The notes below the pieces were generated by a model. It worked only from the letters and a program-made list of their open reading frames with translations. It did not search any database and was not told where the DNA came from. Shown here in pieces: positions 5,362-63,416 of a stretch of DNA of 64,000 nucleotides. A program made the translations under genes and the position numbers. Position 1 is the stretch's first letter. Each line of letters begins with the position of its first letter. This DNA is from Stieleria maiorica (GTDB taxonomy: Bacteria > Planctomycetota > Planctomycetia > Pirellulales > Pirellulaceae). Location: contig NZ_CP036264.1 of NCBI RefSeq assembly GCF_008035925.1, forward strand, positions 3,282,443-3,346,442, in the 5' to 3' direction.

Positions 5362-5419
5362 AGTAGGTCAACAGACCGCCGAGAGTTTCGCCCCGCCACA
5401 CGGTAGAGTAAGCGATCGT

Positions 5420-6547
<1,128 letters not shown>

Positions 6548-6791
6548 GCCCTTTGCTTCGAACCGATCTGAAAACGAATCGACACCGATTTACAGAGAAC
6601 AGAATTGGATCGTTCCTGCAAGCGGAAATAGGCTCATGAACGTGTCGATGTCGGGCCAGCGATCGACCACGTCATGAACCGTCGGTTTGTGCACGCGGCC
6701 CCGCTTCGGGGAAAATGGCGTTAACCTAGCGGTACCCGGTTTTGATCGGCCCAATGTCGGCCCCGGATAACGTGCTTGGAAGGAGTGAATT

Positions 6792-8501: not shown

Positions 8502-8764
8502 AGTGGAGTCCGGGGCAGCAGCAAACGCTGGTGTTTAGCCTTTAGGGACCGTCCAGCTTAGGGCGATGCTTTTCTCGCGGTACGATGGCCCTTCCGGGCC
8601 GTCGCCCGTGGGGCTCAGCGCGACGACCTAGAAAGGACGTCGTACACCCATCCACCGACCACCTCTTACCCAACCGGCTGATGTCAACCGCTTGTCAGCC
8701 GTTTGGCGCGAGCCTACGGGCCCTCCCCAGAGGCTGGAAGCCGGGCGCGCAGCTTTTTGACGCG
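8502..8764. other. Intergenic repeat-bearing gap
   Basis: No gene is seen. At 8526-8546 lies CGCTGGTGTTTAGCCTTTAG, which resembles CGTTGGTGTTCAGGCTTTAG at 16929-16948, a possible further dispersed motif. The large repeat copy at 8580-8653 occupies the middle. Confidence 0.5.
8580..8653 (+). repeat. Dispersed repeat, GGCCCTTCCGGGCC family
   Basis: Near-complete match to the reverse complement of 145-214: GTACGATGGCCC-TTCCGGGCCGTCG at the left and TAGAAAGGACGTCGTACA at the right, with a divergent middle of about 25 bases. The 12-base core is shared with the tandem copies at 30631-30724. Confidence 0.8.
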
Positions 8765-9079
8765 TCAGACCAGGCAGGGCACTGCGGCGGCGGCGCCGGT
8801 GGTGCTGGCCGCCGGGGCGGGCACGGCCGGTTCGACGGTTTGCATCGGCATCGGCATGATGACTTCGGCCGCCGGGATCAGTCGCACGGCTTCACATCGC
8901 GACAGATAGAACTGACGTGGTTCTTCGCGGCACAGACACAACGCCAGGAAGCGATCGTCGCCGACAAAACGAATCGGGCTGACGATCCGGCGGGTGCGGT
9001 TGCCTTTGGAATCCGAATAGACCATTTCGACGACGAAGGTTTCCGAATCGAACATGGCGCGGCGTAGTACGTTTTTCAT
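8765..9079 (-). CDS. Small WYL-like domain protein
   Basis: About 104 residues. The ATG at 9079 follows an AGGGGG ribosome site, which makes it much more likely than the longer open frame from 9205. The sequence MVYSDSKGNRTRRIVSPIRF, then RFLALCLCREEPRQFYLSRCEA, follows the general pattern of the C-terminal half of WYL domains (Y, a G turn, R-x-V-x-P, a hydrophobic strand, C, then R-x-F-x-L-x-R). It lacks the DNA-binding helix-turn-helix normally found before WYL, so if the match is right it is a stand-alone ligand-binding unit. The last 35 residues are proline/alanine-rich and probably disordered. It lies downstream of the DUF1501 gene on the same strand with 122 bases between. The WYL assignment is tentative. 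Confidence 0.7.
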   Translation of the reverse strand: MKNVLRRAMFDSETFVVEMVYSDSKGNRTRRIVSPIRFVGDDRFLALCLCREEPRQFYLSRCEAVRLIPAAEVIMPMPMQTVEPAVPAPAASTTGAAAAVPCLV

Positions 9080-9201
9080 GGCGTGTCCCCCTGAAGGATG
9101 GTAATCACTTCGGACGTGGCAATTTGGGTCGGCCGATTCGTCCGTTGCGGGCAGGTTTCTGCTTGCCTGGAGAAGTATCAGGGGGCGCCGGACACATTCG
9201 G

Positions 9202-10500: not shown

Positions 10501-10603
10501 CGTGATCGTGGTTGGGAGGGGCTGGAAATAGTGTCGGGCGAGTGTGCATCGGGATGGACACCGCCGCTTGGAACACGAACCCTTTGATGATTCGGAGACC
10601 GAA

Positions 10604-10666
10604 CGTAGCCACCTTCACCAGAAGGTGGTCCTCCGACGCTCACCACGCTCTGGCGAGCGTAGCTAC
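10604..10666. repeat. Palindromic CCACCTTC repeat, copy 1
   Basis: CCACCTTC (10609-10616) and GAAGGTGG (10621-10628) form an eight-base stem with an ACCA loop, followed by a second inverted pair built on ACGCTC and GAGCGT and ending CGTAGCTAC. The unit matches 17048-17110 in layout and most bases. It lies between the two genes of the DUF1549-DUF1501 pair. Confidence 0.75.
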
Positions 10667-10701
10667 AGCAAAGAGCAGCGGTCCAATGGAATGAAGGAAC
10701 A

Positions 10702-12690
10702 TTATTGAACGAACAGGAACTCACGGGTGTTGAGCAAGGCCCAGATGATGTTTCCGTAGCCGACGTTGTCGTTGGGCGTCCGCGAGAGCTCCTTGGCGAC
10801 GAACAGCCGGTCCTTGGTCGCGGGCCGTCGTGCCAGCACGCTCATGAAGATCGCATCGATACGGTCGCGTGTGTCGCGGATGGCCAAGACATCGTCGACG
10901 ATCGCCGATCCGCGTTCGAGCATGACGTGGGTGATCGGCCCGTTGAACATGGCCAGAATCTGCGGCACCGTGGCTTCTTTCTCCGCACCGTCGATCGTCT
11001 CGCGATCACTTTGGCCGAATTGGCGCAAGAAATGGTCGGCACGCTGTGGCGCGGGCAGCTCACTGGCGCGGCACAGGATATTGCCCTGATAGGCGTGCTT
11101 GTTCAACTCTCGGTTGTAAGCCGAAAGAAAGTATGTCTTGGCGAAACGCTCCGACTGGGCCTTGGCCTGTTCGAACGTTAGGTTGGCAAAGTCAACGTCC
11201 ACGTACGGTTTCAGTTCTTCGGCCCCCGGACGCTGAAACGGCATGGGGTTGCGAACCGCCAGCGTCAGCATCGAATCCCAAACCTGCTCGGCCGTCATCC
11301 GGCGAATCATCGGCCCCGGAAAGTAGTAGGCTTGGCCACTGGTGACGTCGTAGTCCGACGCCTCGCGCTGATACGTTCGCGAGTACAGGATGATACGAAT
11401 CAGGTCCTTGAGGTCGAATCCTGATCGCACCAGTTCCTTGCCCAGGCACTCCATTGCCGGTTCATTCACGCACGGATGCTCGTCGCGAAAATCGTCGATC
11501 GGTTCGACGAATCCGACGCCCATGAATCGTTGCCACAATCGATTGACGATCATGTTTTGGAATTGCTGGTTGTCCGGGCTGGTCACCCAGGCGGCGAACT
11601 GGTGCCGCGGCGAGGCGTTTTTGGCTTTCGAGGGGATCTCGCCCCACAGCACGGCCGGTTCGATCACCGACTTGGGCTTGGCGTCTTGGTAGGCGTAATC
11701 GTGCGGCAAACGCAGGGTCGCCTTGACTTCGGAAACGTTGTAGGTGTTGGCGCGAATCATCCGCTGGAACGCGCCGGGGACTCGCCCTTTGTCGTAGTGC
11801 TTGCGGGCTTCGCTGATCATCGCGTTGGCGGGATTCGTTTTCTCATAGCCTGGGTCGCCACGCTTGATTCGCGTCCGAGTCCCCGCGGTCAACGCCGCCA
11901 ATTCATAGAACTGGTACTGGGTCCATTGGTCAAAGGGATGGTCGTGGCATTGGGCACATCCGATCTGGGTGCCCAAGAAGATCCTGACGGTGTTGTCGAT
12001 GTACGGCAGCGGCATCCCGTCATCGCGCAGTTGGTAGCCGGTCGCGGGATTCTCCCACACCTTGCCGTCGGCGGTCAGCATTTCATAGACCCACTCGTCG
12101 TACGGCTTGTTGGTGCGAATCGCATCTTTGACGTACGCCAGGAACGGTTCCGCGATGATGTTCGGCTGGGGGCGTTCGCGCAGCCGCAGCGTGTCGGCCC
12201 AAAAGTTGTAGGTGTGACTGACGTAGTCCGGACTGCCCAGCAGCGTGTCGATCAATTCGATGCGTTTATCCGGATCTTTGGAATCCAGAAAGGCTTGGGC
12301 CTCGGCCAGCGTCGGAATTCGGCCGGCGACGTCCAAATAGATCCGTCGCAGAAACACTTCGTCCTCGACCGGCGGGTTCGGCGACAACCCTTGCTCGGTC
12401 AGCTTGTCTTCGATCAGCGAGTCCAGTTCGGCGGCGGCGAGTTCCAATTCGGTCCGCCGATCGCGCGATGCCGGTTCGACGTCCATCAGGTGCGATGGTC
12501 GTGTGCGCACGCTTTCGGGCAGTCGGATCTTTGGCGGTGCGGGTTTCTTCTTGGCGGGCGTCTTTTTTTGTGCCGTCGCGACGGCAGGGGACAGGACCAG
12601 CAGGGCTGAAACCAGCGCAAGCAGGGGGGCCGGTCGTCGAAGGAGAGGGGGCAACATGGCGGCGGGAATCATCGAAAATCGCGGACGCAT
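10702..12690 (-). CDS. DUF1549/DUF1553 protein without N-terminal cytochrome
   Basis: A 662-residue exported protein starting at 12690 with a signal peptide (APLLALVSALLVLSPAVATA). DUF1549 begins near residue 85 (EVFLRRIYLDVAGRIPTLAEAQAFL) and includes GTQIGCAQCHDHPFDQWTQ, a CxxCH heme or metal site. DUF1553 fills the C-terminal half (RRMTAEQVWDSMLTLAVR, then the ending PNDNVGYGNIIWALLNTREFLF). Unlike its larger paralogue at 40704-43682, it has no PSCyt1 cytochrome domain in front; instead a lysine/proline-rich linker (KKTPAKKKPAPPK) precedes DUF1549. It is upstream of its DUF1501 partner and probably in the same transcript. Confidence 0.92.
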   Translation of the reverse strand: MRPRFSMIPAAMLPPLLRRPAPLLALVSALLVLSPAVATAQKKTPAKKKPAPPKIRLPESVRTRPSHLMDVEPASRDRRTELELAAAELDSLIEDKLTEQGLSPNPPVEDEVFLRRIYLDVAGRIPTLAEAQAFLDSKDPDKRIELIDTLLGSPDYVSHTYNFWADTLRLRERPQPNIIAEPFLAYVKDAIRTNKPYDEWVYEMLTADGKVWENPATGYQLRDDGMPLPYIDNTVRIFLGTQIGCAQCHDHPFDQWTQYQFYELAALTAGTRTRIKRGDPGYEKTNPANAMISEARKHYDKGRVPGAFQRMIRANTYNVSEVKATLRLPHDYAYQDAKPKSVIEPAVLWGEIPSKAKNASPRHQFAAWVTSPDNQQFQNMIVNRLWQRFMGVGFVEPIDDFRDEHPCVNEPAMECLGKELVRSGFDLKDLIRIILYSRTYQREASDYDVTSGQAYYFPGPMIRRMTAEQVWDSMLTLAVRNPMPFQRPGAEELKPYVDVDFANLTFEQAKAQSERFAKTYFLSAYNRELNKHAYQGNILCRASELPAPQRADHFLRQFGQSDRETIDGAEKEATVPQILAMFNGPITHVMLERGSAIVDDVLAIRDTRDRIDAIFMSVLARRPATKDRLFVAKELSRTPNDNVGYGNIIWALLNTREFLFVQ

Positions 12691-48458: not shown

Positions 48459-49640
48459 TTACTCGCTGATTACCAGCGCGTCGACGCACAACGCATGGTT
48501 CTCGTCTTCGGGATCGACCAGAATGCGAACCGGCGTGCCTTGTTCGGCCAGCGACTTCGCACGCTCGATTCCCGCATACACATTCGCCTTCGACTTGCGT
48601 GACTTGCCCCGAAAGTCATCGCTCAAGTGCAACACGTAGCGGCGTCTTCCGTTGACTTCCGTGTCGGTCCGCTCGACGCGTTCGATGCGTCCGGAATGAA
48701 GCGTCCCCTGACGCAACAGTCGGTGTTTGCGGCGCCCGTGTCGAAGGGAAAAGAACAGCATCAGCCCTCCGGCCAGTAAAAATGTTCCCGCAAAGGGGAC
48801 CGCGAGCAGGCGGTCGTTGCCTTGCAGTGTCACAAAACACAGCACCGGAACGACGACGCCGACGATGCAAAACACAACCCCCATCGCGATCAACATTTTC
48901 AAGTCCGCGATGACTTGACGTTGCAACCCGCTGGGAATTTCCAACCGCGGAATCGGCTGTGCGAGAAACGACTGCACTTCAGCGCTGGAAAGCGCGATTC
49001 GGTTCAGTTCCTTGCGGAGGATCCGCCCCGCAATGCCTCCCATGTTCTCGGCCGCCGCCATGGCGTCTTGAACTTGGGTTTCTCGGGTGATTTCCGGATG
49101 ACGATCCAATTCGGCCTCGCCCGATTGAAACAGCCGAAAGATCTCGGCCGCATCGCTGACGAAGGACTCCCTTTCGTCGCTCTTGCACACCGCATTGTGA
49201 TTGAAGATCGCGATGTGATTCCGATCCCCTCGGATGCTCCAGCCCGGATGCTGGGCGAAATAGTCGCGGATCTCCAGAGTGAACAATACCCGGACGGCTT
49301 TTTCATTCCAGGCGTGCAGCAGGTAGTCGGCCGAGAACTCGGGTGAATCATCGAAGTTCACGTCATTCATCCCCCCGATCGCGGAAAAGACAGCTCCGAT
49401 GATCCCTTTGAAGTGAGGGAACATCGCGAATTGGGGCAGATCGATCGGTTCCTGTGGCACCGCCACCGTTTCGCGAATCCACTGCGTCGATCGTGAATCG
49501 GGGTCGCTGGATCGATAACTGATGTCGGCGATGATCAGATTCAGCCCGTCCCGCTCGCACGCCTCCTGGTGATCAACGGCGACGTTGCGGGCGAGCAACT
49601 CCGAAAGCGATTCGGCCAGTGATTCCGTTGACGAACTCAT
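48459..49640 (-). CDS. DUF3592-like membrane protein
   Basis: 393 residues. The first 230 are soluble and unassigned (LNLIIADISYRSSDPDSRST, FSADYLLHAWNEKAVRVLFT). Two membrane helices follow (IAMGVVFCIVGVVVPVLCFV, VPFAGTFLLAGGLMLFFSLR), then a small beta-rich domain (LHSGRIERVERTDTEVNGRR, PVRILVDPEDENHALCVDAL) like the C-terminal part of DUF3592 proteins. The ATG at 49640 overlaps the stop of the giant TPR gene by four bases (ATGA), so translation is coupled and the two products are likely used together in the envelope. The start is firm for this reason. Confidence 0.85.
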   Translation of the reverse strand: MSSSTESLAESLSELLARNVAVDHQEACERDGLNLIIADISYRSSDPDSRSTQWIRETVAVPQEPIDLPQFAMFPHFKGIIGAVFSAIGGMNDVNFDDSPEFSADYLLHAWNEKAVRVLFTLEIRDYFAQHPGWSIRGDRNHIAIFNHNAVCKSDERESFVSDAAEIFRLFQSGEAELDRHPEITRETQVQDAMAAAENMGGIAGRILRKELNRIALSSAEVQSFLAQPIPRLEIPSGLQRQVIADLKMLIAMGVVFCIVGVVVPVLCFVTLQGNDRLLAVPFAGTFLLAGGLMLFFSLRHGRRKHRLLRQGTLHSGRIERVERTDTEVNGRRRYVLHLSDDFRGKSRKSKANVYAGIERAKSLAEQGTPVRILVDPEDENHALCVDALVISE

Positions 49641-52600
49641 TGGGTCTCTGTGCGAGTAAAGGTCAGCAGATGCTGGGGCACCTCCGTGGGCCAGGGGCCG
49701 TTGAGCCGGACATTTCGGATTCGCGCGGACGTCTGTTCTCGGTTGTGGAAAAAACCGAACACCATGTCTCCGAGCCGAGATTGCGGTTGTTGGTCAAAGA
49801 CGGTTTCGCCGTTCAGCGAGATCCGGATGCGGGATCCGTCGCGAACCAATTCTACCCGATTCCACTGGCCCGCTTTCAGCGGCAACGGTTTCGCGTCAGC
49901 GCCGGGCAAGGGTACCTCGAAACCCTTGGGGATCTTCCACGCCGTATTCGGGGCACTCATCCAGTGCAGTTTCAATCCGCTCGGACGCATCACATAGGCG
50001 ATTCGACCAATGGAAGGATGCACCTCCATTTTGCCCTCTTCGTAGAAGAACTCATACGAGAGCACTTCGCCGTCCCCGAGCGGGCGTTCATAACGAATGC
50101 TGTTTTGGCCGTTGAATTTCTGTGCCTTGATTTTGCCGCTGATTAACTCACCGTCTTGCACGGTCCAGGCCAGGTTTTGAATCTGTTCAGGTTTGGAGCC
50201 GGTGCGATAGCGCGAAGGGTCGTTGCCGTCCTTGTCCTGTTTGCGGGCATCCACGTCAGCGGTCGGAAGCGCGACGCCGTAGTACTGTCCGGACCAACCA
50301 CGCAGCGTGTCGCCGGGGATCAAGTTCACGTCGCCTGGGATCTGGGGGGTGCCGCTGATCTTGATGTTCCGAACCGACGTTCGTTTGTTACCCGCCAGAT
50401 GGACGGCAAACCACGGCGAATGATCCTTGCGTGGTTCACGGTAGATCAATTGGTCGTTGACGCGAAAGCTGAGCGTTTTTTCATCCAGCGTCACGCTACA
50501 GTGATTCCATTGGTTCTGTCGGGTGGCCTTTGAATAGAACCGCACCCAATCGGTAGTGTTCTGAGACTTGACGTACACGCTGCCGTTGTGGGCCAACGGC
50601 GCGAACTGCAGCCCATCGAACAACAATTCCGCTTCTCGATAGCCGCCGTCGCGGATTTCCATTTCGACGGCAAAGTTACCTTGCAAGGGGTAGCGGAACC
50701 ACAGGGAATCATTGCCGAAACCGCAAACATGACGGACTTGCGATTCACCGTCGGACACCCAAATCGGAGCCGTTTTTCCTTCCGAAAAGTCTTTGGCACT
50801 GGCGTGGGTGGCCGGAATCCAATGTGCCAAATCGTCACCCGAGCGCAGCTCGGACGTCTCGGCCCATCCTTGGTTGTGTTCAAATCGCGCAACCCATGGC
50901 ATCAAGTAGCCACGTGATTGCGTGTGGGTGTGGTCCATCAGGGACTGTGTCACCTTTTTGGCAAACGCGTGGTGTTCGGGTGCGGACGCCAGAATTGAAG
51001 CGAGCTGTAATTCGGCCAGAGGGGCCTGTGAAGCCGGCTTTCCGTCGGCTGGCTGGATCGCATCCAAGTGCTGAACAATTTTCGAAAGCAACTGGGGATT
51101 GACGGGCTGATTCATCGCCGAGAGACAAATCGCCAGCGCGGTGTCGGCGCCGCTGCGGCCATCGGCTTGCGCTTTCCGCAATCGTTCTAACAAGTCATCG
51201 CCGGCATCGATCTGCATGGCCAAACGAGCCAGGGAATAGAAATTCGTTGCGATCGGAAGCGATGCATCCGCAACCGGAGGGAAAGGCGGGTAATACCCGC
51301 CGACCGATTCGGGAATCCATGTAGGCAGCCGTTGTCGTCGAACCAGCGCCCGAATCGTTTGCAGCGAACCATCACCCTGAAACGTCCAGTCAGCCAGCTT
51401 TTGGTAGGCCGCCTTACGGTCGGACATCCCCTGAATCGATTCCAACGCCCAGGAGCCGACCCAATCGTTGCTGCGGTCAAAGCCTTGCGAAAAACCGTCG
51501 TGACGCATCCCCAGGTAGGTCAACGCCTCGTCGACTCGGCCTTTGGGTAGCAACAACTGGGCAACCTTGTCCAACTGTCCCAGACGCCGGGTCACACGAC
51601 TGCTGACGCCCGAATAGCGATCGTTGTCGTGGGCGGTCAATTCCAAATAGTCGTTGATGGCCTTTGCGACCAAGTCGTCGTTCAATCCATGTTCAAGCCC
51701 CTGCTTGGCCAGATGAAGCGAGAACGTTTCGTAGGGCGTGACGTTGGCATATCGCTCGCTCGGACGGTTTTGGTCAACCAGTGCAAGCCCCAATTCCATC
51801 GCACGTTGGCGGCAATGGGGATCCTGGAACGCGAGCAGCAGCGATTGCATCACCAACTCTTTCGGCAAGGCGCTCAGCGTGGTTGGGTCAACTGCCTCGT
51901 ACCGCGGCAGCGCCGCTTGGCCGCGTTTGTCGTTCAGCAGCACCAGCCCGGCCATCAGATGTGATTGGGCATCGTCGCCCGAGACCAACGACAGCAGCTT
52001 GTCGGTCTGCTTGGACCAGCTTGCCCGGCGAGCCAGTCGGTCGAACACGCTGTGGATAACGATCCGATCGTCGGGTTTGATCTCGACGGGAGCGCACAGC
52101 GGACGCGGACGCGATCCGCTGGGGCCCAATGTCAGCGCGACGAGCGGATCAAACACGAACTTCGTATACAACTGATTCACCCGCCACGCTTCATCCAATT
52201 CCAGAATCCGCCGCGCAAGCCGGACCTCGTCGGCGTCCAGTTCGTTGACCGTCGACCGGGAGGACGAGCTTTGTCGCGGCTGAGCGTTGCTGAGTAGTTC
52301 CCCCAAGGAGTTGGCGGAGTGATCCGTCGGCGGGTTGACCTGAACCGCCCCCGCCGGTGCGGGGACGGCGGCGGAAAAAGCGGCCGCGGAAAGTTCCGGC
52401 AGGCCGGCTTCGATCGCCGCGTGCGACAGGTCGATCAGCAACCACTGGCTTGCCGCCAAATCGACCGCACGCTGCCACAACCGTTGCGTGGATTCTTTAT
52501 CAGCCCGTTCCAGTGCCTGATTTCCCAGTGCGGCGATCAAACAGGTTTGTTCGACTTGATTGACTCCCGTGATCGAATCGAAATTCAGATCGGAGCTCAC

Positions 52601-55600
52601 AACCGGATCGCCATTCGCAGTGTCCCCGGGAACGCTCTGGTCGGCGAGAAGCAGCAGGACCATGGTCAATCGTCCACGCAGACGCTGATCAATCACCTTC
52701 GAATCGCTTGGGGATTCATCATCGTCCTCGGGGGAGGTTGCGGTTCGCGGCCTCATCCAGCGCCGAATCAGATCCTTCAGCGGCTGGTGATCGCCGACGA
52801 CGTCCGCCGCGATCGCGTGGGCAGCCGCAGCCGAGTCGTCGTCGGGACGTTCTTCGGCAAGCGATTGCATCTGCCCAGCGAATTCATCCAACGCGCCTGC
52901 ATTCTTCGGATCGCCGGCGGCGTCTTGCAACATCTCCACCCACAGCGAGGAAACCGCGTGTTGGGTAAAGGGCTGATCACCCAGTGTGATCGCGAAATCG
53001 ACCGCGGTGGGGCTTTCGGTTTTGGGATTGATCATCGACTGGACGGTGGCCAATCCGCCCAGTTTGCGGACTTGATCCAAGAGTTCTTGCTGCTGCTTTT
53101 CGAATTGTTCTTGTCGTCCCGACTGATAGCGGCCTGCTTTAACGAACAGCGTCGTGTCGAACTCGCGTGCGATGCGAAGGGCATCGGTGGGGTAATCGAT
53201 TTTGGCCATGAACTCCATCATGGCCATCGTCGATTGAATTTGTTGGTACGCTTCGTATTCCGGATTGCTGAAACTCTGTTGCGGATTGTTCTTTGCCTGT
53301 TCGATCGCTTCGAGCGCCATCTCACGGGCGCGTTGGTTGTTGCCGATGTCGGCCATGAAGTTGCAGACTCGGCCTTTCAGCGAGTATTTAAAATCACGGT
53401 TCGAGCGATCGGTCGTGTTCTCCAACGCGTATTCGTAGATCCGCTCGCTCAGATCCTGCATCGGCGGATGCGTGTCGATCAAGCTGCCGACCAGCCAGAG
53501 CAGGTCGTGCGTCGGCTGCGGGCTGAGTTCCCCGCTGACCAACGGCTCCAGCAATTGTTTGGCTTCGTCGTATCCTTTGTTCGTCGTCAACAACAAGGCG
53601 AGCCAGACTTTGCCCTCCTGCCAGTCATCTTTCTCCTTCAGTTTCTCCCGCAACAATTCTTCGACCGCCGTTACGTTTTCCTGGTCGCCGGCGACGTGAC
53701 GGACGAAGGAGGTGGTCACGTTGTTGTGCCGGCCATCGCTGCTGGTGGAATAGCCGCTGAACAACGTGTTCCATCCGGTTCCATTCTCTGATGCTTCGAT
53801 CAAGTAGCGGGCGGTACGCAACACGGTTTCGCGATCGGTCAGAAGCTTACTGGCCGACCCCATCACGTTGCTCATCGAATACATCGAATTGGTCGACGTC
53901 GGCGCGATATCCAACATCGCCAAATACAATTTCCGTGCCTTGGCGACACCGTTTTCGTTGCGAATCAGGTCTTCACAGATCTCCGAGACGCGGTGGTCGG
54001 TGAATTTCTGGATCCCGACTTCGATCATCAGGTCCGCCAAATCGCCCAGCCGCTGCGTGGCATCAAAGGGACGTTTGATGTCATAAAACTGTTGGTTGAA
54101 CATGTCTTGTTTGCGGCGGAGCAGTTTTAGATACGCTTCACAGGCCTCATCCATTTGGCCGGCGGTCACCAGTTGTGCGGCGGTGGCTTCGAGAGCGCGG
54201 GCGCTGTTGACGTCCTTGATCTCCATCTGGCCGAGCAGCTCTTGCGATTTCTCCGTTTTCCCGGCGGCGACATACAGTTCGGCCAGCTCCGATCGGATCC
54301 GCTGGCTTTTGGGAGCCTTTTCAAGTTTTGATTCGGTCGCCTTGATCAGCGACGTCAACCGTCCGGTCGTCGAGAGCGTTTGCAAGGCATTGCGGCGTAG
54401 GACTTGGTTGGTCGTCGTGTAACGGCTGGTCGTTCGTCGCGATGGGACGCTGCGCCGCAACAGTTCCATCGCGACCTCGGCCGCCTGATCGTGTTCGCCT
54501 TGGGCGACGAAATACGTCATCAGCGATTGCAATTGGTCGGTATTGCTGCCGCCCCGGCTGCGCAGACGCCGGACCAGATCCGCAGCGAGCTGGCGCATGT
54601 CCAATTGACGCATCAACTTGGCCAATTCGATCTGTGCCTCGGTGTTCAACCGGACGCCGAACAATCGCCGTGCGGCGGTTTGGGCACGTTGCCGATCGCC
54701 GATCGCAGCGGCCAACCGTGCGGCGGCAAATTCGCGGACGGCCATGGTGTTTTGGTCATAAACGGCCAACGTATCGATCGCATCCAGGGCTTCGCGTTTG
54801 CGATCGAGACGCAACAGCAGATCGGCGGACATCAACCGTAGCTCGGGCTCCATCTGCGGCAACTCGTTGGAGGCGAGTTGCGTCGCTTGGCTGAGCTGAT
54901 CAAGCGCCTGGCCGGTTTGTTTGTCCCAGTACAACAGTGCCGCGGCGGCGAGCCGACGAATGATTCGCTCACGTGGTTGAGTCGCATCCGACGCGGGCGT
55001 CTGCAATGATTCGATCCACTGGCCGGTGTGGTCTTTCATGCGTTCCCAGACACCGTATTGGGCAAAGACGAATGGGTCGTCTTGGCCGAGTCCGCTGGGC
55101 GGGAATTCGATTTCGGTTCGGATGTATTGACCGCCGACGACCCGGCCCCTGGTTCGCGGTCCGCCGATTCCCGTCAAGCGGATGGTGCGTCGCTGGAGCG
55201 GTTGCTGGGCGACGTCTTTGATCATCTTGTCCATCAGGGCGATGACCCGCGTGCGATACTCGGGGTCGGAGGCTCCCTTGGACAACCCGTCCGCGACGCG
55301 CTTTTCGGCGGTGAACAAGGTCAGGAAATGAGCCGAGGGAGACGCCCCGAAAGTCGCTTTCAGTTCCTCTTTGTCTTCGATGGCACGCTGCAGCAATGGC
55401 CACAGCTGCGCATCGGTTCCATGGGCCGATGCTTGCTGGATTGCCACCAACAGGCCGACCGACTCGGGGTCGGCGATGGCCGCTTCAAGCTGGGCTTGCA
55501 GGTATCGGTCCGCTTCTTCCTTGCTGCCGGCGATCCGCAACTCGGATCCATAGATCATTGGCCAGGAGGCACGCTGGCCGTACTGGTCGGCGATAGATTT

Positions 55601-58600
55601 CTCCGCCGAATCGGCTTTCGCTTTGACCCATGCGAGACGTTCCTCGGGCAGTTTTTGCAGTTCGATGTCGCCACGTTCGGCATAGCGTGTGCGGTTGGCG
55701 AACATGCTGACCAACAGCGACTCGCCGATCTCCTGATCCACGTCGGCCAATCGCCATAGCGGCGCCCAGTCGGCGGGATCCTGGGGGTTGATGCTGGACT
55801 GTTGCTGGACCGTTGCGGCCAGCGATGTGGTTTGGTACCAGTCCCAAACCTGATCGGCCGAAGCATCGTCGGCCATCGCGGTCTTTTCCAGGTCGGCCAA
55901 GTGCTGCTTGAGTTTTGCGGCCGATGTCGACATCTGTTTGAGCTGGCAATAGCGTGCCATCAGTTTGGCGTGACCGAAGTCGATCGGTTTGGGCAACGAC
56001 ATCGTCGACTGATAACCGTAGCGGTCGTCGACGATTCGGTAGAACTCGTACATCTGTTGCAGTCGCATCAGCTGCAGGGGCGGCTGGGTGTACGTTTGGC
56101 CGCCGCTGACGCGGACCGTTCGCTGATAGGGTTTGCCGCCTTCGGGCAGGGTGGTGTCATCAACGCTCATTGCGATCAGGTCGTCCGCGGTCTCCGCCGC
56201 CGCTTCCCAGTCGTCTTCGTCGGCCTGCAACACCATCAAACGCAGGCGTGTTTCCCAGTCGTCGCTTTGATGGTCCAATAACCCCTTGGCTAGCTTCAGC
56301 GCCGTTTCGACTTCGCCGGCCGCATACAAGCGATTCAGATTGCGCGCCACTTGGGTGGGATCGGCGTTTGACTCGGCCATCCGGAACCACAACGTTTGGG
56401 CCTCTTCGACTTCGCCGATGTCGATCAACAGCGAAGCGAGACGGGCTTCGTTCTTACGATCGGGGGCCAAACGCATCAGCTCTCGTTGCAACGCGACCGC
56501 CTGGTCGTATTCGCCGGACTGTTCGGCCAGAGCGACCAGACGTTCCAGCAGCAAGGTGTCCCGGCCGCCTTCACTTAGCAGCCCTTCGAGTGCTTGGCGG
56601 GCCAGGCCCAAGTCGCCTGCCTGTTGATGAACCGTCGCGATCAGATCGACGGTGGAGCGGCGATCGCCGGATTCACGCCCACGGATTTCCAAGCGATCGA
56701 TCAATTGGTCCAGGCGATTGGTTCTTAAATACAGGTCCGTCAGCGTGGTGACGATCTCGCGTTTGCCGTCCAGATCATTGGCGCTATCGAGCATGTTCCA
56801 GTACAGTTCGATCGCCTGGTCGGTTTTGAAGTCCTCGGCCAGTTGGCTGGCGAGCATCCGCTGGGCCTCGTTGCTGCGCGGGTTCAACCGTGCGCAGCGT
56901 CGCAGCGTATCGAGACGTTGGTCGACCCGGCCGATGGTTCCGCATAAATCGGCATAAAACCGATAGGCTTCGATGGAACCGGCCGATGCGGCCAACAATT
57001 CTTTGCCGACCGCGACGGCTTGTTCCGTTGCGCCGACGCGGAGATGCAACGAGGACAGTTTTTGCAGGTGACCGTTTCGGAATCGCGGATCCGTTTCGGC
57101 CAGCCGACGCCGCTTCTCGATCGCCAGTGGAAGCCGCCCGGAATCTTCATACATCCGCGCGGCGATTTCCAAGGCATCGATCGATCCCGGTGATTGTTTC
57201 AGCGACTTTTCGATCGCGTCGAGCGCTTCGGGAACTTTACCGGCGGCGTTATAGAGGATTGCCAGCCGACGCATCGCTTCCCCGTCGCTCGCATCATCGG
57301 CCGTTTCTTCGATCGCTTGTTCGATCCGTTGGTCCAATTTGCCGGCGGCCTGGTACGTTTTAACTTCGGCGGCGAAGACGCGTCCGCGATCGTCCATGTT
57401 CTCCGTCACGGTGGATGCCATACCGATTTGTTCCAGTGCCGAATCGAAAAGATCGGCTTCGCGAAGCCATTCGGCATACCTCAGCCGTTCTTCGATCGTA
57501 GGATCCAGTTCACAGGCCTCGGCCATGACCGTCAACGCTTCGTCGGAGCGGTCGAATTGGTGAAAGACTTCGGCTAATCGAACCAGGTTTTTTCGATTGC
57601 GTTGATCGCCGGCGACCAAGGAACGCCAAACCTGGGTCGCTTCGTCCTGGCGATCGAGTTGGTGCAGGTACTCGCCCAGGTACTCCTTGTATTGCGGTTG
57701 GTCCGGGGCCAGCTTGATAGCGGCTCGGTACTGCGAAATCGCATCTTCAACCAGGTCGGCGCCACGCAACAGATCCGCGACCTGGGATTGAATGACGGCA
57801 TCGTCCAAGCGGGCGTCTGCCAATCGCTTCCAGATTTTCGCCGCCGCTTGGGTCCGTGCCGCGTTGGGCTGCGCGGGATCGTCCAATAAGACCTGCCCCC
57901 AACGCACGAAATGATCCGGGTTGCCCGGATCCAATTCGATCAAGGACTCGTATTGTTTGGCCGCTTTGGAATAATCTTCGGCAGCGACGTAGGCGTTGAT
58001 CAATGCCAGTCGCGGTGCGGGATCGGTCGGTGCCAGCTGGATCGCTTTTTCGAACCAGGACAACGCTTCGGGACCACGGCCTTGGATCGACAGGGTGCGA
58101 GCGAGACGAATGACCGCGCCCAGATCCTCGGGGTGGTTTTCGATCCAGTCTTCATAGTATTCCGCTAGACCGGCGTAGTCGCCACTGGAAAGAAACGTGG
58201 CCTCGATGCGTCGCCGGGCTTCGTCATAAAGATAACTTCCCGGTCGAAGTTTCTTGAGCAGGAGTTCGAATTCACTGATGGCTTGTGCTTGGTCGCCCGA
58301 TTGGGCGCGCAGATCGGCCGCGCGCATGGCAAAGACGATTCGGTCATTGGGCGAACGAGCATCTTTGGCCAGGGCCTCGTAACGGGCCAACGCGCCGTCG
58401 ACGTCGCCTTCTTCGATCATCACGCGGGCGATCCGCTGGCGGACACCGTCATCGCCTGGAAAAGTTTTTTCCAGCTGTTCCCATATCCGGATCGCGTCAT
58501 CGATCTTTCCGCCGCGTTGGTATAAACGGCCGAGTTGTCCGGCGATTTTCAGGTGATCTTGTCGCGATGGTTTTAAATCGATCGCTCGCTGCATCGCCGC

Positions 58601-59059
58601 GGCCGCCTCCTCCGTTCGTCCGACCAACAGTAACGCTTGGCCGTGGTAGTAGGCTGCCAACGGATTGTCGCCCAGTTTCTTTTCCGCTTCCGCCAAGGCC
58701 TCGATCGCCGCGGCGTCTTCGCTGCGTTGCAACTGCAGCAACCCGGCGACCATCCAGTGGCGTCCCGATTCATCGGTATCCGCGGTGTTTTGGGCCTTGT
58801 TCGTCAGTTCATCAATCACCTCGCCGATGTCACCGACGCCGATGTGGTATCCAAACACACGGTCCAAGGCCGTTCCGGTGTTGGGCCGTCGAAGCAGCAC
58901 CTCCAAGAACTTCGCCGCCGTGATTTTCTCACGCTCCTCGGCGGGCGAAAGCGGCGTCGGCTGAGCCATACAGGCCACTGGGCGATAGGCACCCAATGCC
59001 AGCAAACAGCAAATCACAAGCGTCGGTTTGAAATGGCTGCGGGCAGTGCGACCGGACAT
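49637..59059 (-). CDS. Giant exported TPR protein with LamG-like tail
   Basis: About 3140 residues. The start at 59059 (MSGRTARSHFKPTLVICCLL) follows AAAAGGGGA and gives a signal peptide ending near CMAQ; the ATG at 59104 is too far upstream. From about residue 60 to 2700 the protein is a solenoid of TPR-like helical pairs, clearest in the N-terminal half: PLAAYYHGQALLLVGRTEEA, GNPDHFVRWGQVLLDDPAQP, KVPEALDAIEKSLKQSPGSI. Residues about 2740-2900 and 2900-3130 are two beta-sandwich domains of LamG/DUF1080 type (FAVEMEIRDGGYREAELLFD, LKAGQWNRVELVRDGSRIRI). It probably acts as a large scaffold outside the cytoplasm. It is coupled to the DUF3592-like gene and divergent from the kinase-WD40 gene. 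Confidence 0.92.
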   Translation of the reverse strand: MSGRTARSHFKPTLVICCLLALGAYRPVACMAQPTPLSPAEEREKITAAKFLEVLLRRPNTGTALDRVFGYHIGVGDIGEVIDELTNKAQNTADTDESGRHWMVAGLLQLQRSEDAAAIEALAEAEKKLGDNPLAAYYHGQALLLVGRTEEAAAAMQRAIDLKPSRQDHLKIAGQLGRLYQRGGKIDDAIRIWEQLEKTFPGDDGVRQRIARVMIEEGDVDGALARYEALAKDARSPNDRIVFAMRAADLRAQSGDQAQAISEFELLLKKLRPGSYLYDEARRRIEATFLSSGDYAGLAEYYEDWIENHPEDLGAVIRLARTLSIQGRGPEALSWFEKAIQLAPTDPAPRLALINAYVAAEDYSKAAKQYESLIELDPGNPDHFVRWGQVLLDDPAQPNAARTQAAAKIWKRLADARLDDAVIQSQVADLLRGADLVEDAISQYRAAIKLAPDQPQYKEYLGEYLHQLDRQDEATQVWRSLVAGDQRNRKNLVRLAEVFHQFDRSDEALTVMAEACELDPTIEERLRYAEWLREADLFDSALEQIGMASTVTENMDDRGRVFAAEVKTYQAAGKLDQRIEQAIEETADDASDGEAMRRLAILYNAAGKVPEALDAIEKSLKQSPGSIDALEIAARMYEDSGRLPLAIEKRRRLAETDPRFRNGHLQKLSSLHLRVGATEQAVAVGKELLAASAGSIEAYRFYADLCGTIGRVDQRLDTLRRCARLNPRSNEAQRMLASQLAEDFKTDQAIELYWNMLDSANDLDGKREIVTTLTDLYLRTNRLDQLIDRLEIRGRESGDRRSTVDLIATVHQQAGDLGLARQALEGLLSEGGRDTLLLERLVALAEQSGEYDQAVALQRELMRLAPDRKNEARLASLLIDIGEVEEAQTLWFRMAESNADPTQVARNLNRLYAAGEVETALKLAKGLLDHQSDDWETRLRLMVLQADEDDWEAAAETADDLIAMSVDDTTLPEGGKPYQRTVRVSGGQTYTQPPLQLMRLQQMYEFYRIVDDRYGYQSTMSLPKPIDFGHAKLMARYCQLKQMSTSAAKLKQHLADLEKTAMADDASADQVWDWYQTTSLAATVQQQSSINPQDPADWAPLWRLADVDQEIGESLLVSMFANRTRYAERGDIELQKLPEERLAWVKAKADSAEKSIADQYGQRASWPMIYGSELRIAGSKEEADRYLQAQLEAAIADPESVGLLVAIQQASAHGTDAQLWPLLQRAIEDKEELKATFGASPSAHFLTLFTAEKRVADGLSKGASDPEYRTRVIALMDKMIKDVAQQPLQRRTIRLTGIGGPRTRGRVVGGQYIRTEIEFPPSGLGQDDPFVFAQYGVWERMKDHTGQWIESLQTPASDATQPRERIIRRLAAAALLYWDKQTGQALDQLSQATQLASNELPQMEPELRLMSADLLLRLDRKREALDAIDTLAVYDQNTMAVREFAAARLAAAIGDRQRAQTAARRLFGVRLNTEAQIELAKLMRQLDMRQLAADLVRRLRSRGGSNTDQLQSLMTYFVAQGEHDQAAEVAMELLRRSVPSRRTTSRYTTTNQVLRRNALQTLSTTGRLTSLIKATESKLEKAPKSQRIRSELAELYVAAGKTEKSQELLGQMEIKDVNSARALEATAAQLVTAGQMDEACEAYLKLLRRKQDMFNQQFYDIKRPFDATQRLGDLADLMIEVGIQKFTDHRVSEICEDLIRNENGVAKARKLYLAMLDIAPTSTNSMYSMSNVMGSASKLLTDRETVLRTARYLIEASENGTGWNTLFSGYSTSSDGRHNNVTTSFVRHVAGDQENVTAVEELLREKLKEKDDWQEGKVWLALLLTTNKGYDEAKQLLEPLVSGELSPQPTHDLLWLVGSLIDTHPPMQDLSERIYEYALENTTDRSNRDFKYSLKGRVCNFMADIGNNQRAREMALEAIEQAKNNPQQSFSNPEYEAYQQIQSTMAMMEFMAKIDYPTDALRIAREFDTTLFVKAGRYQSGRQEQFEKQQQELLDQVRKLGGLATVQSMINPKTESPTAVDFAITLGDQPFTQHAVSSLWVEMLQDAAGDPKNAGALDEFAGQMQSLAEERPDDDSAAAAHAIAADVVGDHQPLKDLIRRWMRPRTATSPEDDDESPSDSKVIDQRLRGRLTMVLLLLADQSVPGDTANGDPVVSSDLNFDSITGVNQVEQTCLIAALGNQALERADKESTQRLWQRAVDLAASQWLLIDLSHAAIEAGLPELSAAAFSAAVPAPAGAVQVNPPTDHSANSLGELLSNAQPRQSSSSRSTVNELDADEVRLARRILELDEAWRVNQLYTKFVFDPLVALTLGPSGSRPRPLCAPVEIKPDDRIVIHSVFDRLARRASWSKQTDKLLSLVSGDDAQSHLMAGLVLLNDKRGQAALPRYEAVDPTTLSALPKELVMQSLLLAFQDPHCRQRAMELGLALVDQNRPSERYANVTPYETFSLHLAKQGLEHGLNDDLVAKAINDYLELTAHDNDRYSGVSSRVTRRLGQLDKVAQLLLPKGRVDEALTYLGMRHDGFSQGFDRSNDWVGSWALESIQGMSDRKAAYQKLADWTFQGDGSLQTIRALVRRQRLPTWIPESVGGYYPPFPPVADASLPIATNFYSLARLAMQIDAGDDLLERLRKAQADGRSGADTALAICLSAMNQPVNPQLLSKIVQHLDAIQPADGKPASQAPLAELQLASILASAPEHHAFAKKVTQSLMDHTHTQSRGYLMPWVARFEHNQGWAETSELRSGDDLAHWIPATHASAKDFSEGKTAPIWVSDGESQVRHVCGFGNDSLWFRYPLQGNFAVEMEIRDGGYREAELLFDGLQFAPLAHNGSVYVKSQNTTDWVRFYSKATRQNQWNHCSVTLDEKTLSFRVNDQLIYREPRKDHSPWFAVHLAGNKRTSVRNIKISGTPQIPGDVNLIPGDTLRGWSGQYYGVALPTADVDARKQDKDGNDPSRYRTGSKPEQIQNLAWTVQDGELISGKIKAQKFNGQNSIRYERPLGDGEVLSYEFFYEEGKMEVHPSIGRIAYVMRPSGLKLHWMSAPNTAWKIPKGFEVPLPGADAKPLPLKAGQWNRVELVRDGSRIRISLNGETVFDQQPQSRLGDMVFGFFHNREQTSARIRNVRLNGPWPTEVPQHLLTFTRTETQ

Positions 59060-59253
59060 ACGATCCCCTTTTAACGTTCCATCAGGACTGTGACGTCCCG
59101 TCACAGCGGGACCACCTTCAAGGGCTATAGGCTAACACACTCCGGAACCTCGGAGTCGCGGGGGCGGAGAGAGATTCATCGGTCTCGGCCCGCTTTGGCG
59201 TCGCGACGCTGGGCAGATATAATGACTCCACGGGACAGCTTTTCACCACTCTT
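59060..59253. promoter_or_regulatory. Divergent promoter gap, TPR giant and kinase
   Basis: About 190 bases separate the starts of the giant TPR gene and the kinase-WD40 gene, which read outward. The gap must contain both promoters and so offers a shared control point. No palindromic operator or clear sigma-type boxes were found by eye. Confidence 0.5.
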
Positions 59254-62200
59254 TTGGTCGTCGCGGGGCAATTCAGTTTGTCGATTTTTAATCACGACTC
59301 ATCGACTCGCTCGCTGCCGGACACCGAGTTTGTGGTTTCGAACGAGCTTCAGAGGCTTCTGGACCGTTGGGAATCCATGGTGGCTGCGGGTGAGGACGTC
59401 ACGGCGGAACAGCTTTGCGAAGGCGACTTGGGCTTGGCCGAGCAACTGCGGGACTACGTCAATTGGCTGGAGATGTCGTCGGGACATGGTCCCGCGTCTC
59501 CGGTGCCGCTTCCGGAGTCGATCGGCCCTTACAAGATTCTGTCAGAGATATCCCGAGGTCCCTATTCGATTGTTTATCTGGCCGAGCAGCGGTTTCCGAA
59601 TCGAAAGGTTGCGTTGAAACTGTTGCATGACCTGGCGGCCCGATCGAGGGTCAAATCGCGTTTTCAGCTTGAGGTGGAGTTGCTGGGGACGCTTCAACAT
59701 CCCAACATCGCCAAGATCTTTGACGCCGGTGTCGCCGATGTGCTCGGCGCGTCTCGACTTTATTTCACGATGGAATGGGTCGAGGGGGCGGACATCGGAC
59801 AATACATCCGCTTCCGCCGGCAAGAGTCGGACTGGTCGCCTTCGGACACGATCCGGCTATGTCTGCAGTTTTGCGAAGCCTTGTCGGCGGCCCACGCCGA
59901 AGGGATCGTTCACCGCGACCTGAAACCGGCCAACATGTTGGTCACCGACGATGGAGTGCCGAAGCTGATCGATTTCGGGCTGGCTCGAATCCGACGCGAC
60001 AACGTCGACGAATTGGGGCATGAGCCGACGACGGAAGCCTGGATCGGAACGCGCAGCTACATGAGCCCCGAGCAGTTCAATGCGCAGCTTGGTCAAATCG
60101 ACGTTCGGACCGATGTCTATGGCATGGCGGTGGTGCTGTATCAGTTGCTCTCGGGACGGCTTCCCTATGAGATCGACAAAAAGACGATGTGGGAGACGGC
60201 CCAAATCGTCAAAACTCAGCCGCCGTTACCGATCGGTCGTGTCGACCGTCGCCTTCGCGGTGATTTGGAATTGATCTTGGAAACCGCGTTGGCGAAAGAG
60301 CCGGGCGAACGCTACGCATCGATGGAAGCGTTCGCGACGGATCTGAGAAACTATGTCGATGGCAAACCGATCCATGCTCGACGTCAGGGGGCGGGCCGGG
60401 CGTTGTGGAAGTGGAGTCTCCGGCACCGTCGGGTCGCCGCCGTCTCGGTCGCGGCTCTCGTGTTGTTGGTCGCGCTTGCCGTCACCGCCGGCATCGCGGC
60501 GAAACTCGCCAACGACCGCGCGAGAGATCTTCGTGACATCAACGAGATCCTCCGTTTGAACGAGGCGGAACTCGTCAGCGCGAACGAGCGATCGTCCAAG
60601 TCCGCTCGGCGGCTACGTCGAACCGCAATGAACCAGACCTTGTTGCGTCTGGGGCTGATCGCCCAACGTGAACCCGATCATGTCGCCGAGCAATTGGCCG
60701 ACGAGTCAATTTGTCCTCCGGATCTTCGCGGCTTCGTCTGGCGTCTGCTGTATGAATACACGACCCAAGTCACGACGGGATGGAACGCGGACCGGCGCGG
60801 GTTGCTGGACGTTGCCGTTTCCGATGACGGGGCGTGGCTGGTCACCAGCGGGCCGTCGGGCGTGCGTGCCTGGGAAACGGCATCGGGCAACCCGATCGCG
60901 GCGATCGAAGGACAAATCGATTCACCGACGGTTCGACTGGCACTCGATGGCGATTCGCGCGCGGCACTGTTCGCGCGACGCGACGGCACCGCCGTCCGGT
61001 TTGACATCGATTCCAACCAGACGCACGTGCTGTGGTCGGACGACGCGGCACGGGCGACCGCTGTGGCGGCGGTCACGGGCGACGACGGCTACTTGATCGG
61101 CGACCAATCCGGCCGTGTCACGCACTTTGATCGCCCCGGCGGCCGGCAGACCTGGCAACGCCGGCTGGATGATTCCGCGATCATCGGATTGACCATTGCG
61201 GCCCAGGGCGATCGGGTCGGTACGGTTTCGCAGAACGGTGTGCTGACGATATGTGACCTGCAAACGGGTGAACCGCTGGAACGGCAAAAAGCGTCGTTTG
61301 TCGCAGACGACGCGCAATCGGTCTTCCGTGGCCGATACTCGGATGACCTGCGATTGGCGTGCTTGTGCCGTCAAGTCAAAGCCGCCGGGATCTGGGACGT
61401 GGCTTCCAATCAGTCTCTGCGGACTTGGGGCGGCCAACTCTTCCTGCCCGATTTGGAAATCTGTCACTCCGGCGCGGGGCTCCAAGGCCAACGTATCCTG
61501 CTCTGCGGGCGTGGACAGGTCGTTCTGTTGGGCAGCGATGGAAAGCTGGCAACGATCTATCGCGGCGATCGCGCCCAGTCGCTCAGCCTTTCCCCGAACC
61601 AGACGACAGGGACGCTAACCGAATCTTCACCGAACGTCGATTGGGATCCCTTCGTCGTCGATGCGTCCCGGCACGGCGACAATGTCGCCATCGGGCTGAG
61701 GGGCGGGCGCGTCTTGATCGCATCGGTCACGCCCAAACGGCTGTACCAATCCTGGAAACCGCTCGGGCAGGTCGTGCGGCGACTGGCGTTTTCGTCCCGC
61801 GGTGATCTGCTGGCGACCTACAGCCCCAATGGGACCGTCGGCATTTACGATGCCCGGACGGGCGAGCTGCGACGCCAGTGGGCGACGGGCACCAAGAACA
61901 TTTACCAAATTCTGTTCGCCGACCCGGATCCGATTTTGATCACTCGTGCACGGGGGCGCGACGTCGACCTCTGGGACGCAACAAGCGGTCACCAAATCGA
62001 TTCGCCGAACGTCCCCGGTGGGACGCGGGGGATCATGCTTGAGGCCGATCGGCTGCTGATCGGCTTGGACGACGACAAACCGAGGTGGTTGCCGATGGAC
62101 AACTCGGCTGAAACGCTTCGTCTGGGGCACTCGGCAGAACACGTCGATTCAAGCATCGCGATCGCGGCCAAGGATCGCGTGTCAGGCTTGTTGGCCACCG

Positions 62201-62679
62201 CCGATGAAAACGACGTGGTGGTGTTGTGGCGGGAAGCGGAGAATGGGCAAGTGGAACGATTGGGCGAGCGTCACCTGGACGACTTGAAAACGATGAAGTT
62301 CCACCCCGGCGGTTCTGCATTGGTCACCGGTACGCTCGATGGCATGATCACGGTTTGGTCGATGCCCGATTTTCAAGTCATCACCCGTCGCCAAAGCCCT
62401 GCCCAATTGGCGGAACTCGATTTCTCCAATGACGGCAGCGTCATGGCGAGTGGCCACTTTGACGGCGAAGTCCTGTTCTGGGACACCCAGGTCTGGCAGA
62501 CGCAGTTGGTGGTCCAGACCAACATCGTACCGATCCGCAGCCTGCAGTTTTCCCCGCTCTCAGACCGATTGGCCGTCGCCGGCAAGGGTGATCACATCGC
62601 GGTGTTCAGTACACAAACCCCAGACGATCGCGACCGAGAACGGCAACGCCCCGCAACCGCCCGAATGGCGGAGAAATAG
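59254..62679 (+). CDS. Ser/Thr protein kinase with WD40 propeller
   Basis: Up to 1141 residues. No in-frame ATG fits; TTG at 59254 or 59278 (the latter eight bases after GGGG) are candidates. Residues about 88-355 are a Hanks-type kinase: lysine in VALKLLHDL, glutamate in FQLEVELLGTLQHPNI, VHRDLKPANMLV, LIDFGLARI and SYMSPEQF all intact. The glycine loop is ISRGPYSIVYLAEQ, with only one of the three usual glycines. A membrane helix (VAAVSVAALVLLVALAVTAG, about 394-418) follows, then a WD40-like propeller from about 500 (RGLLDVAVSDDGAWLVTSGP, LKTMKFHPGGSALVTGTLDG) presumably outside the membrane. An N-terminal helical segment of 80 residues is typical of planctomycete kinases. It may sense envelope signals. 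Confidence 0.92.
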   Translation: MVVAGQFSLSIFNHDSSTRSLPDTEFVVSNELQRLLDRWESMVAAGEDVTAEQLCEGDLGLAEQLRDYVNWLEMSSGHGPASPVPLPESIGPYKILSEISRGPYSIVYLAEQRFPNRKVALKLLHDLAARSRVKSRFQLEVELLGTLQHPNIAKIFDAGVADVLGASRLYFTMEWVEGADIGQYIRFRRQESDWSPSDTIRLCLQFCEALSAAHAEGIVHRDLKPANMLVTDDGVPKLIDFGLARIRRDNVDELGHEPTTEAWIGTRSYMSPEQFNAQLGQIDVRTDVYGMAVVLYQLLSGRLPYEIDKKTMWETAQIVKTQPPLPIGRVDRRLRGDLELILETALAKEPGERYASMEAFATDLRNYVDGKPIHARRQGAGRALWKWSLRHRRVAAVSVAALVLLVALAVTAGIAAKLANDRARDLRDINEILRLNEAELVSANERSSKSARRLRRTAMNQTLLRLGLIAQREPDHVAEQLADESICPPDLRGFVWRLLYEYTTQVTTGWNADRRGLLDVAVSDDGAWLVTSGPSGVRAWETASGNPIAAIEGQIDSPTVRLALDGDSRAALFARRDGTAVRFDIDSNQTHVLWSDDAARATAVAAVTGDDGYLIGDQSGRVTHFDRPGGRQTWQRRLDDSAIIGLTIAAQGDRVGTVSQNGVLTICDLQTGEPLERQKASFVADDAQSVFRGRYSDDLRLACLCRQVKAAGIWDVASNQSLRTWGGQLFLPDLEICHSGAGLQGQRILLCGRGQVVLLGSDGKLATIYRGDRAQSLSLSPNQTTGTLTESSPNVDWDPFVVDASRHGDNVAIGLRGGRVLIASVTPKRLYQSWKPLGQVVRRLAFSSRGDLLATYSPNGTVGIYDARTGELRRQWATGTKNIYQILFADPDPILITRARGRDVDLWDATSGHQIDSPNVPGGTRGIMLEADRLLIGLDDDKPRWLPMDNSAETLRLGHSAEHVDSSIAIAAKDRVSGLLATADENDVVVLWREAENGQVERLGERHLDDLKTMKFHPGGSALVTGTLDGMITVWSMPDFQVITRRQSPAQLAELDFSNDGSVMASGHFDGEVLFWDTQVWQTQLVVQTNIVPIRSLQFSPLSDRLAVAGKGDHIAVFSTQTPDDRDRERQRPATARMAEK

Positions 62680-62867: not shown

Positions 62868-63416
62868 ATGTCAGAACGTATCATCTTGCGCACCGGAGAA
62901 TCACTTGTTGCCGGCGGCCCCCCGTTTACCGCCGCCGAACCCGAAGTCGTGATCGGCGAACTCGACGGTCCGGTCGGCACCGCCTTGGCCACGCTGACCG
63001 GTGACCAAACCAAGGGGCACACCAAAGTCTTTGCGATCCTGAACACCGACATCCAAGTCCGCCCGGTCACCTTGTGCGTCAGCAAGGTCACCGTCAAAGA
63101 CAACCGCTACACCAACATCCTGATGGGGACGGTGCAAGCGGCGATCGCCAACGGCGTGCTCGACGCGGTTCGCGCCGGCGACATCCCCAAAGAAAAGTGC
63201 AACGACCTGGGAATCATCTGCAGCGTCTGGCTGAACCCGGGCGTCGCCACCGCCGACAACCTGGATCATAAAGCACTGTTCGACATCCACCGCAAAGCGA
63301 TGGCCCAAGCCATTGCCAAAGCGATGGCCTGTGAACCGTCGATCGATTGGTTGCTGGAAAACCAGGAAAACATCACCCACAAGTACTACCAAATGGGCTT
63401 GGACGGAAAGATCTGA
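62868..63416 (+). CDS. Formaldehyde-activating enzyme homologue, His-less
   Basis: 182 residues from the ATG at 62868 (MSERIILRTGES). The Fae family pattern is clear: ILRTGESLVAGG, VIGELDGPVGTALATLTGDQ, KGHTKVFAILNTDIQVRPVT, LCVSKVTVKDNRYTNILMGT and the C-terminal AQAIAKAMACEPSIDWLLEN. Fae condenses formaldehyde with tetrahydromethanopterin, and planctomycetes carry such C1 genes. However, the conserved histidine of the N-terminal motif (AHIDLLIG in the Methylobacterium enzyme) is replaced: the aligned stretch reads AAEPEVVIG, with Glu24 in its place and no histidine before residue 51. The activity may therefore be lost or changed. It has 188 bases of upstream gap after the kinase gene and stands alone. 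Confidence 0.9.
   Translation: MSERIILRTGESLVAGGPPFTAAEPEVVIGELDGPVGTALATLTGDQTKGHTKVFAILNTDIQVRPVTLCVSKVTVKDNRYTNILMGTVQAAIANGVLDAVRAGDIPKEKCNDLGIICSVWLNPGVATADNLDHKALFDIHRKAMAQAIAKAMACEPSIDWLLENQENITHKYYQMGLDGKI

Follow-up and report, generated by a model that had tools for sequence, protein, structure and literature searches.

The window, a stretch of 64,000 nucleotides of the Stieleria maiorica genome, contains a gene for a 182-amino-acid protein that belongs to Fae3, an established and widespread paralogue family of the formaldehyde-activating enzyme (Fae). The N-terminal active-site histidine of Fae is exchanged for glutamate in this protein, and the exchange is fixed throughout its group. 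The protein is under strong constraint, and the genome also carries a second, His-bearing Fae as well as the H4MPT route. Sequence comparison shows the family to be exceptionally conserved even across large evolutionary distances among bacteria.

The gene and its altered site

The open reading frame at 62868-63416 (+) starts with ATG. The ORF list gives the same frame with an ATG further upstream, at 62796; among 36 aligned homologues, both His51 and the Met1 that belongs to the 62868 start are invariant. The family blocks of Fae reported in the first-pass annotation were found again as a full-length match to the Pfam profile PF08714 (Fae), which scored 194.5 bits where the cut-off is 27 and covered profile positions 1-158 of 159. 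The NCBIfam equivalog one_C_fae (TIGR03126) scored 116.7 bits, marginally below its curated cut-off of 118.05. The features of the gene are as follows.

62868..63416, + strand: fae3-type gene for a 182-aa Fae-family protein (ORF list, Pfam, structure alignment, MAFFT, tree)
62922..62930, + strand: two-residue insertion directly before the site (two of residues 19-21, depending on the aligner)
62937..62939, + strand: codon GAA for Glu24, in the place of Fae His17 (alignments)
63018..63020, + strand: codon of His51, the first histidine of the protein

The VAHID histidine of Fae is taken here to be His17, the presumed catalytic residue and general acid of the published Fae structure. When the window protein was aligned to the M. 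extorquens Fae structure 1y5y, Glu24 (AAEPE) lay opposite this histidine (VAHID), and MAFFT gave the identical register with 167 and with 12 sequences. The annotation was therefore right that the active-site histidine is missing with Glu24 in its place, that the first histidine stands at residue 51 and that two residues are inserted just before the site. It had also considered that a different register could restore a histidine. No such register was seen, the first histidine, H51, being 27 residues away from Glu24, and the possibility was ruled out by the 1y5y alignment and both MAFFT alignments. Judged by His17 as the mark of a functional Fae, the window protein differs by carrying Glu24. In the literature searched, no co-mention of "His17" and "formaldehyde-activating enzyme" was found, and neither "histidine" nor "catalytic" occurs in the main text of PMC11748545.

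The predicted fold of the window protein is that of Fae. In the predicted-fold search, the five PDB matches with E < 0.001 were all chains of 1y60/1y5y (1e-9 to 4e-8). The underlying AlphaFold model is a weak one with a mean pLDDT of 64.5; it was derived from a single subfamily, and residues 34-68 are poorly modelled.

Glutamate, histidine and methionine groups

A total of 209 Fae genes was gathered from 207 loci and gave 167 distinct proteins. The residue at the site was Glu in 94, His in 49 and Met in 24 of them; the Glu set is skewed to the near relatives of the query (best 80 of 241). Identity to the window protein did not overlap between the groups, with 59-100% for Glu, 39-49% for Met and 23-38% for His. 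All 94 sequences at least 59% identical to the window protein have Glu, which indicates that Glu24 is neither chance nor a sequencing error. A mutation specific to this genome was similarly ruled out, since 94 of the 167 distinct sequences carry Glu. One gene (L215/L224) escaped the search pattern for the Glu type and was Glu-type when read by eye.

A tree was calculated for 99 of the 167 proteins (46 Glu, 41 His, 12 Met) by a quick search, with the site column masked and no bootstrap. Each residue state occupied one side of a branch, with SH-aLRT values of 95, 100 and 93 for Glu, His and Met, and two changes suffice to explain the three states. The His and Glu groups differ at 27 positions that are at least 95% constant in both. 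Beside the site, Ile is replaced by Pro and Asp by Glu from the His to the Glu group, so that the neighbouring acid is kept. Some planctomycete Glu-type proteins branch more deeply or are more divergent (L146, L147, L149, L153, L162, also L263-L265); they differ just before the site, by their residues or by a longer insert, and L147 and L153 carry a lysine-rich N-terminal extension.

The Glu group is identified by sequence as the named family Fae3, as it holds the Fae3 of Methylotuvimicrobium alcaliphilum 20Z. Genome G082 is that of 20Z, since the first 8 kb of one of its contigs are 100% identical to the 20Z plasmid record. It carries three Fae genes, located at 0.93, 1.65 and 2.78 Mb on a contig of 4,668,296 bases; the middle one has Glu (L168) and the other two have His (L169, L170). 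This order fits the locus tags of fae1-2, fae3 and fae1 in PMC11748545. The 20Z Fae3 (MEALZ_RS07105) falls in the same clade as the window protein, is 88% identical to it, and has Glu at the site with the same two-residue insertion. The window protein groups with 20Z Fae3 and has its fixed residues; the window gene is therefore Fae3.

Canonical Fae (M. extorquens 1y5y/1y60 and the second Fae of the Stieleria genome, L001) shares with the window protein the family, the fold and the core positions common to all three groups. The window protein differs from it in His17 to Glu24, the insertion and the 27 positions fixed differently. One member of the Met group is encoded on plasmid 1p of M. aquaticum 22A; as the only match on that plasmid it is taken by its place to be the Fae2 of PMC7356819 (H11/L115). 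Like the window protein, Fae2 has extra residues before the site and x-Pro-Glu at the site. Unlike it, the Fae2 group has Met at the site in 24 distinct sequences, is 39-49% identical and forms a separate tree group. The window protein lies outside the Fae2 clade, both on the tree and by its Glu.

Conservation was compared in the 55 pairs formed by 11 genomes with both a Glu-type protein and canonical Fae. The former was more alike than the latter in 54 of the 55 pairs (mean identity 87 vs 70%), and planctomycete-proteobacterium pairs gave 81-90% for the Glu type vs 54-63% for canonical Fae. The four-fold silent sites of the Glu-type genes agreed at 0.364 between planctomycetes and proteobacteria (35 pairs; mean after shuffling of synonymous codons 0.335, highest of 100 shuffles 0.354), and those of canonical Fae between the same phyla at 0.335 (shuffled 0.309, highest 0.329). 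Both are close to saturation with a small excess, so recent transfer between the phyla does not explain the likeness of the Glu-type proteins and was rejected as its cause. On this sequence evidence, protein constraint appears to be the better explanation. An older inter-phylum transfer of fae3 may have occurred: the common planctomycete type stands among proteobacterial ones in the tree, and the window's own gene has the largest silent-site excess, agreeing at 0.449 with the proteobacterial ones (shuffles 0.393, highest 0.438).

Within the genus, five congener pairs gave dN of 0.005-0.017, dS of 0.29-0.97 and dN/dS of about 0.02; canonical Fae in one congener pair gave the same dN/dS of about 0.02. 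In these congeners, 178-181 of the 182 Fae3 residues are identical, against 57-88% in the matched flanking protein stretches. Mean column identity is 92% over the whole chain in 36 sequences, which were chosen at 85-99% identity.

In the literature on Fae paralogues within the scope of this search (subscription and older Fae papers outside it), no description was found of the fixed His-to-Glu exchange, of an interphylum protein conservation stronger than that of true Fae, or of formaldehyde-metabolism neighbours of Glu-type genes in a minority of genomes.

Host genomes and gene neighbourhoods

The 9.89-Mb genome has two Fae genes, that of the window and a His-bearing one at C1:7365559, the second copy that the first-pass annotation proposed to look for. 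The two proteins are 32% identical. A methylene-H4MPT dehydrogenase-domain gene lies behind the canonical Fae, and FhcA (632 bits) and Mch (352 bits) are present elsewhere; with these four components the genome carries the H4MPT route. Among 60 relatives, 16 have the Glu type, 1 the Met type and 57 canonical Fae, and all 16 Glu-type carriers also carry canonical Fae. Similarly, 8 of 149 genomes of the phylum carry the Glu type (the Stieleria genome included), all 8 with a His-bearing Fae; each of the seven other carriers has one Glu gene and one His gene. In the order of Methyloversatilis, 4 of 250 genomes carry a protein 76-85% identical. Within the genus, fae3 is found in 7 of 13 congeners, and one of the six others is only 85% complete. 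Two congeners (G011, G009; loci L159, L161) have a clearly different version with unmatched flanks; on the tree this version adjoins, with weak support, a Blastopirellula sequence, which suggests separate gains within the genus.

Within the window fae3 is a lone gene. By Pfam, neither the two genes before it nor the one after it is related. Directly upstream are a 3155-aa TPR/DUF1583 protein (49637-59104, -) and a 1141-aa Ser/Thr kinase with WD40 repeats (59254-62679, +). The downstream gene (63648 to beyond the window end, -) is a 2534-aa frame with SdrD-B-like and dockerin domains. The statement that the window holds no other C1 gene was borne out for these three neighbours; two FhcA-like matches located inside the window reach just 24 and 20 bits, with the cut-off at 393.

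Neighbours were counted in the 80 nearest named loci; the 100-locus set holds at least one genome twice (L076/L188). The clustering recovered fae3 itself in 67 of the 80 loci and chose overlapping frames elsewhere, so all neighbour counts are lower bounds. FhcD lies within 6 kb in at least 9 of the 80 loci; these belong to Gammaproteobacteria, by title chiefly Methylococcales, and their fhc genes are on the opposite strand. FhcA and FhcB were each found in at least 9 of the 80 loci, one being a planctomycete (L065). A divergent radical-SAM gene is near fae3 in at least 14 of the 80, likewise in Gammaproteobacteria; its product of about 291 aa (L064:5057-5929 and 13 further loci) matches only general radical-SAM profiles in Pfam and NCBIfam. 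In Rhodopirellula-like records, an iron alcohol dehydrogenase (at least 6 of 80 loci) and a CoA-transferase-like gene with a weak profile match (at least 4 of 80) are near fae3.

The planctomycete locus L065, from a Bythopirellula MAG, carries at 4096-11994 an aldehyde ferredoxin oxidoreductase, fae3, a molybdopterin-binding protein, an FhcB-like frame, an FwdA-like amidohydrolase and a GXGXG protein. The FhcB-like frame has 26% identity by tblastn and no Pfam match, and one opposite-strand frame precedes the GXGXG protein. From its gene content, this run is a possible formaldehyde module in a planctomycete. On plasmid pLVM1 of Methylobacterium sp. DM1, genes for a glutamine amidotransferase, GlxC, a glutamate-synthase-like protein and a type III glutamine synthetase are followed by fae3; the set is read as a putative N-methylglutamate pathway. 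Genome G227 has a similar gene set next to fae3, separated from it by a GATase-family frame and a small one.

For all other planctomycete loci, the window included, the clustering and 14 context queries gave no recurrent C1 neighbour. C1-type neighbours are found in a minority of other genomes' loci. A planctomycete link to the N-methylglutamate pathway was rejected: GMAS was over the cut-off in 6 of the 60 relatives, only one of them (G017) a fae3 carrier. A link to the presence of aldehyde ferredoxin oxidoreductase (AOR) was also rejected, as AFOR_N was found in 17 of the 60 (16 over the cut-off) and in 3 of the 16 fae3 carriers (G017, G025, G047). The Stieleria genome itself has neither GMAS over the cut-off nor AOR. 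Since it lacks both and the window gene stands alone, the informative contexts are those of other organisms only.

Candidate roles of Fae3

In published mutant work, 20Z fae3 neither relieved the methanol sensitivity nor restored the growth of an AM1 fae mutant, so that one member of the family has no Fae function in vivo; 20Z fae1 did both, and fae1-2 gave relief on plates, not in liquid, which the abstract counts as failure (PMC11748545). Deletion of fae3 in M. alcaliphilum caused no growth defect, and the functions of Fae-like groups 2-4 were called unknown in this 2024 paper (PMC11748545). In Methyloversatilis universalis FAM5, methylamine raised fae3 11.7-fold over methanol (PMC5023235 Table 3) and its deletion was silent; no revertants arose from a fae1 fae3 double mutant on methylamine, and when fae3 was deleted in a strain that had already reverted, growth on methylamine persisted (PMC5023235). 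The FAM5 Fae3 is likely of the Glu type, as inferred from strain EHg5 of the same species, which has one His-, one Glu- and one Met-type gene, rather than by locus tag. Among nine Methylophilaceae, the N-methylglutamate pathway is present in 2 of 4 genomes with a gene named fae3, which may be of the Glu type, and in 0 of 5 without it, according to a published table (PMC4109929). The hosts of the 20Z and FAM5 Fae3 are methylotrophs, whereas the window's gene stands alone between the WD40-kinase gene and the large SdrD/dockerin-domain gene.

The first-pass annotation left a choice between a binding or regulatory paralogue and a different C1 reaction. A paralogue without the ordinary Fae job is supported by the second, His-bearing Fae in the genome and by the failure of the 20Z clade member to complement a fae mutant; between the two options, the neighbours in some other genomes lean to a metabolic C1 role. 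The preferred reading, which is given about an even chance, is that Fae3 is a Fae-fold paralogue that would likely still handle formaldehyde or its methylene adduct, with another C1 carrier or in another direction. It differs from Fae at the active site by His17 to Glu and the adjacent Ile to Pro and Asp to Glu, and also at some 25 further group-fixed positions, which may line the cleft. Glu24 would act as acid or base instead of histidine, the carrier could be tetrahydrofolate or a furan carrier, or the reaction could run in the releasing or transferring direction, and Fae3 would work beside normal Fae, not instead of it. Such a C1 reaction is favoured because of the metabolic neighbours and the methylamine induction. 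Against it stand the fae3 deletions without a growth phenotype in M. alcaliphilum (PMC11748545) and M. universalis (PMC5023235), the minority of loci and the other organisms from which the informative contexts come, and the equal constraint on canonical Fae within the genus.

The same lost histidine and silent knock-outs keep a binding or sensing role in play. Fae3 would then bind formaldehyde or methylene-pterin as a sensor, buffer or partner, with the chain kept by conserved contacts, a reading that is possible and somewhat doubtful. The failure to complement and the high conservation over the whole chain are in line with it, and sensing or regulatory roles have been proposed for Fae-like proteins (PMC3728764, PMC11748545). 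However, the repeated neighbours of the Glu group are metabolic and its regulators scattered, and Glu can serve as an acid or base with the adjacent acid kept. It is improbable that Fae3 is instead a normal Fae in which Glu takes over from His17 and which serves as a back-up under special conditions. The predicted Fae fold, the methylamine induction and the lack of revertants from the double mutant would fit, but 20Z Fae3 failed to give the AM1 mutant growth or tolerance of methanol. Each of the two His-bearing 20Z copies, by contrast, made it less sensitive to methanol on plates, and fae1 alone did so in liquid as well. In addition, the groups differ at many other fixed positions, and the existing revertant grew on methylamine after loss of fae3. 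It is very improbable that the gene is in decay, or a recent gain, and serves no selected function in this genome. Its patchy presence within the genus and the distinct version in two congeners would suit this, but the dN/dS and the near-identity of the protein beside much less similar flanks speak against it, and pseudogene decay was rejected on these grounds.

A more specific form of the preferred reading is put forward only tentatively: Fae3 could be a second, so far overlooked enzyme of bacterial formaldehyde metabolism, with Glu24 forming, hydrolysing or transferring a methylene group on a carrier different from H4MPT, namely tetrahydrofolate or methylo-/methanofuran. If so, Fae3 would connect the fhc/fwd branch with aldehyde oxidation and with demethylations that release formaldehyde, as in the N-methylglutamate pathway, and its sequence would be under tighter constraint across phyla than Fae. 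The clade-defining His-to-Glu exchange, the high conservation and the C1 neighbours together point to one defined residue and to a few substrates. They are also a warning that surveys which take "fae" to indicate formaldehyde oxidation may lump together three or more proteins whose active sites differ.

Regulatory genes also occur near Fae paralogues. A response-regulator gene lies beside fae3 in 20Z, G108 and L082. One methyl-accepting chemotaxis protein (MCP) match was found among 100 Glu-type loci, and L222 and L223 have weak partial MCP matches. In Azospirillum oryzae, a Met-type fae of the Fae2 group directly follows an MCP gene (L114:3236-5522).
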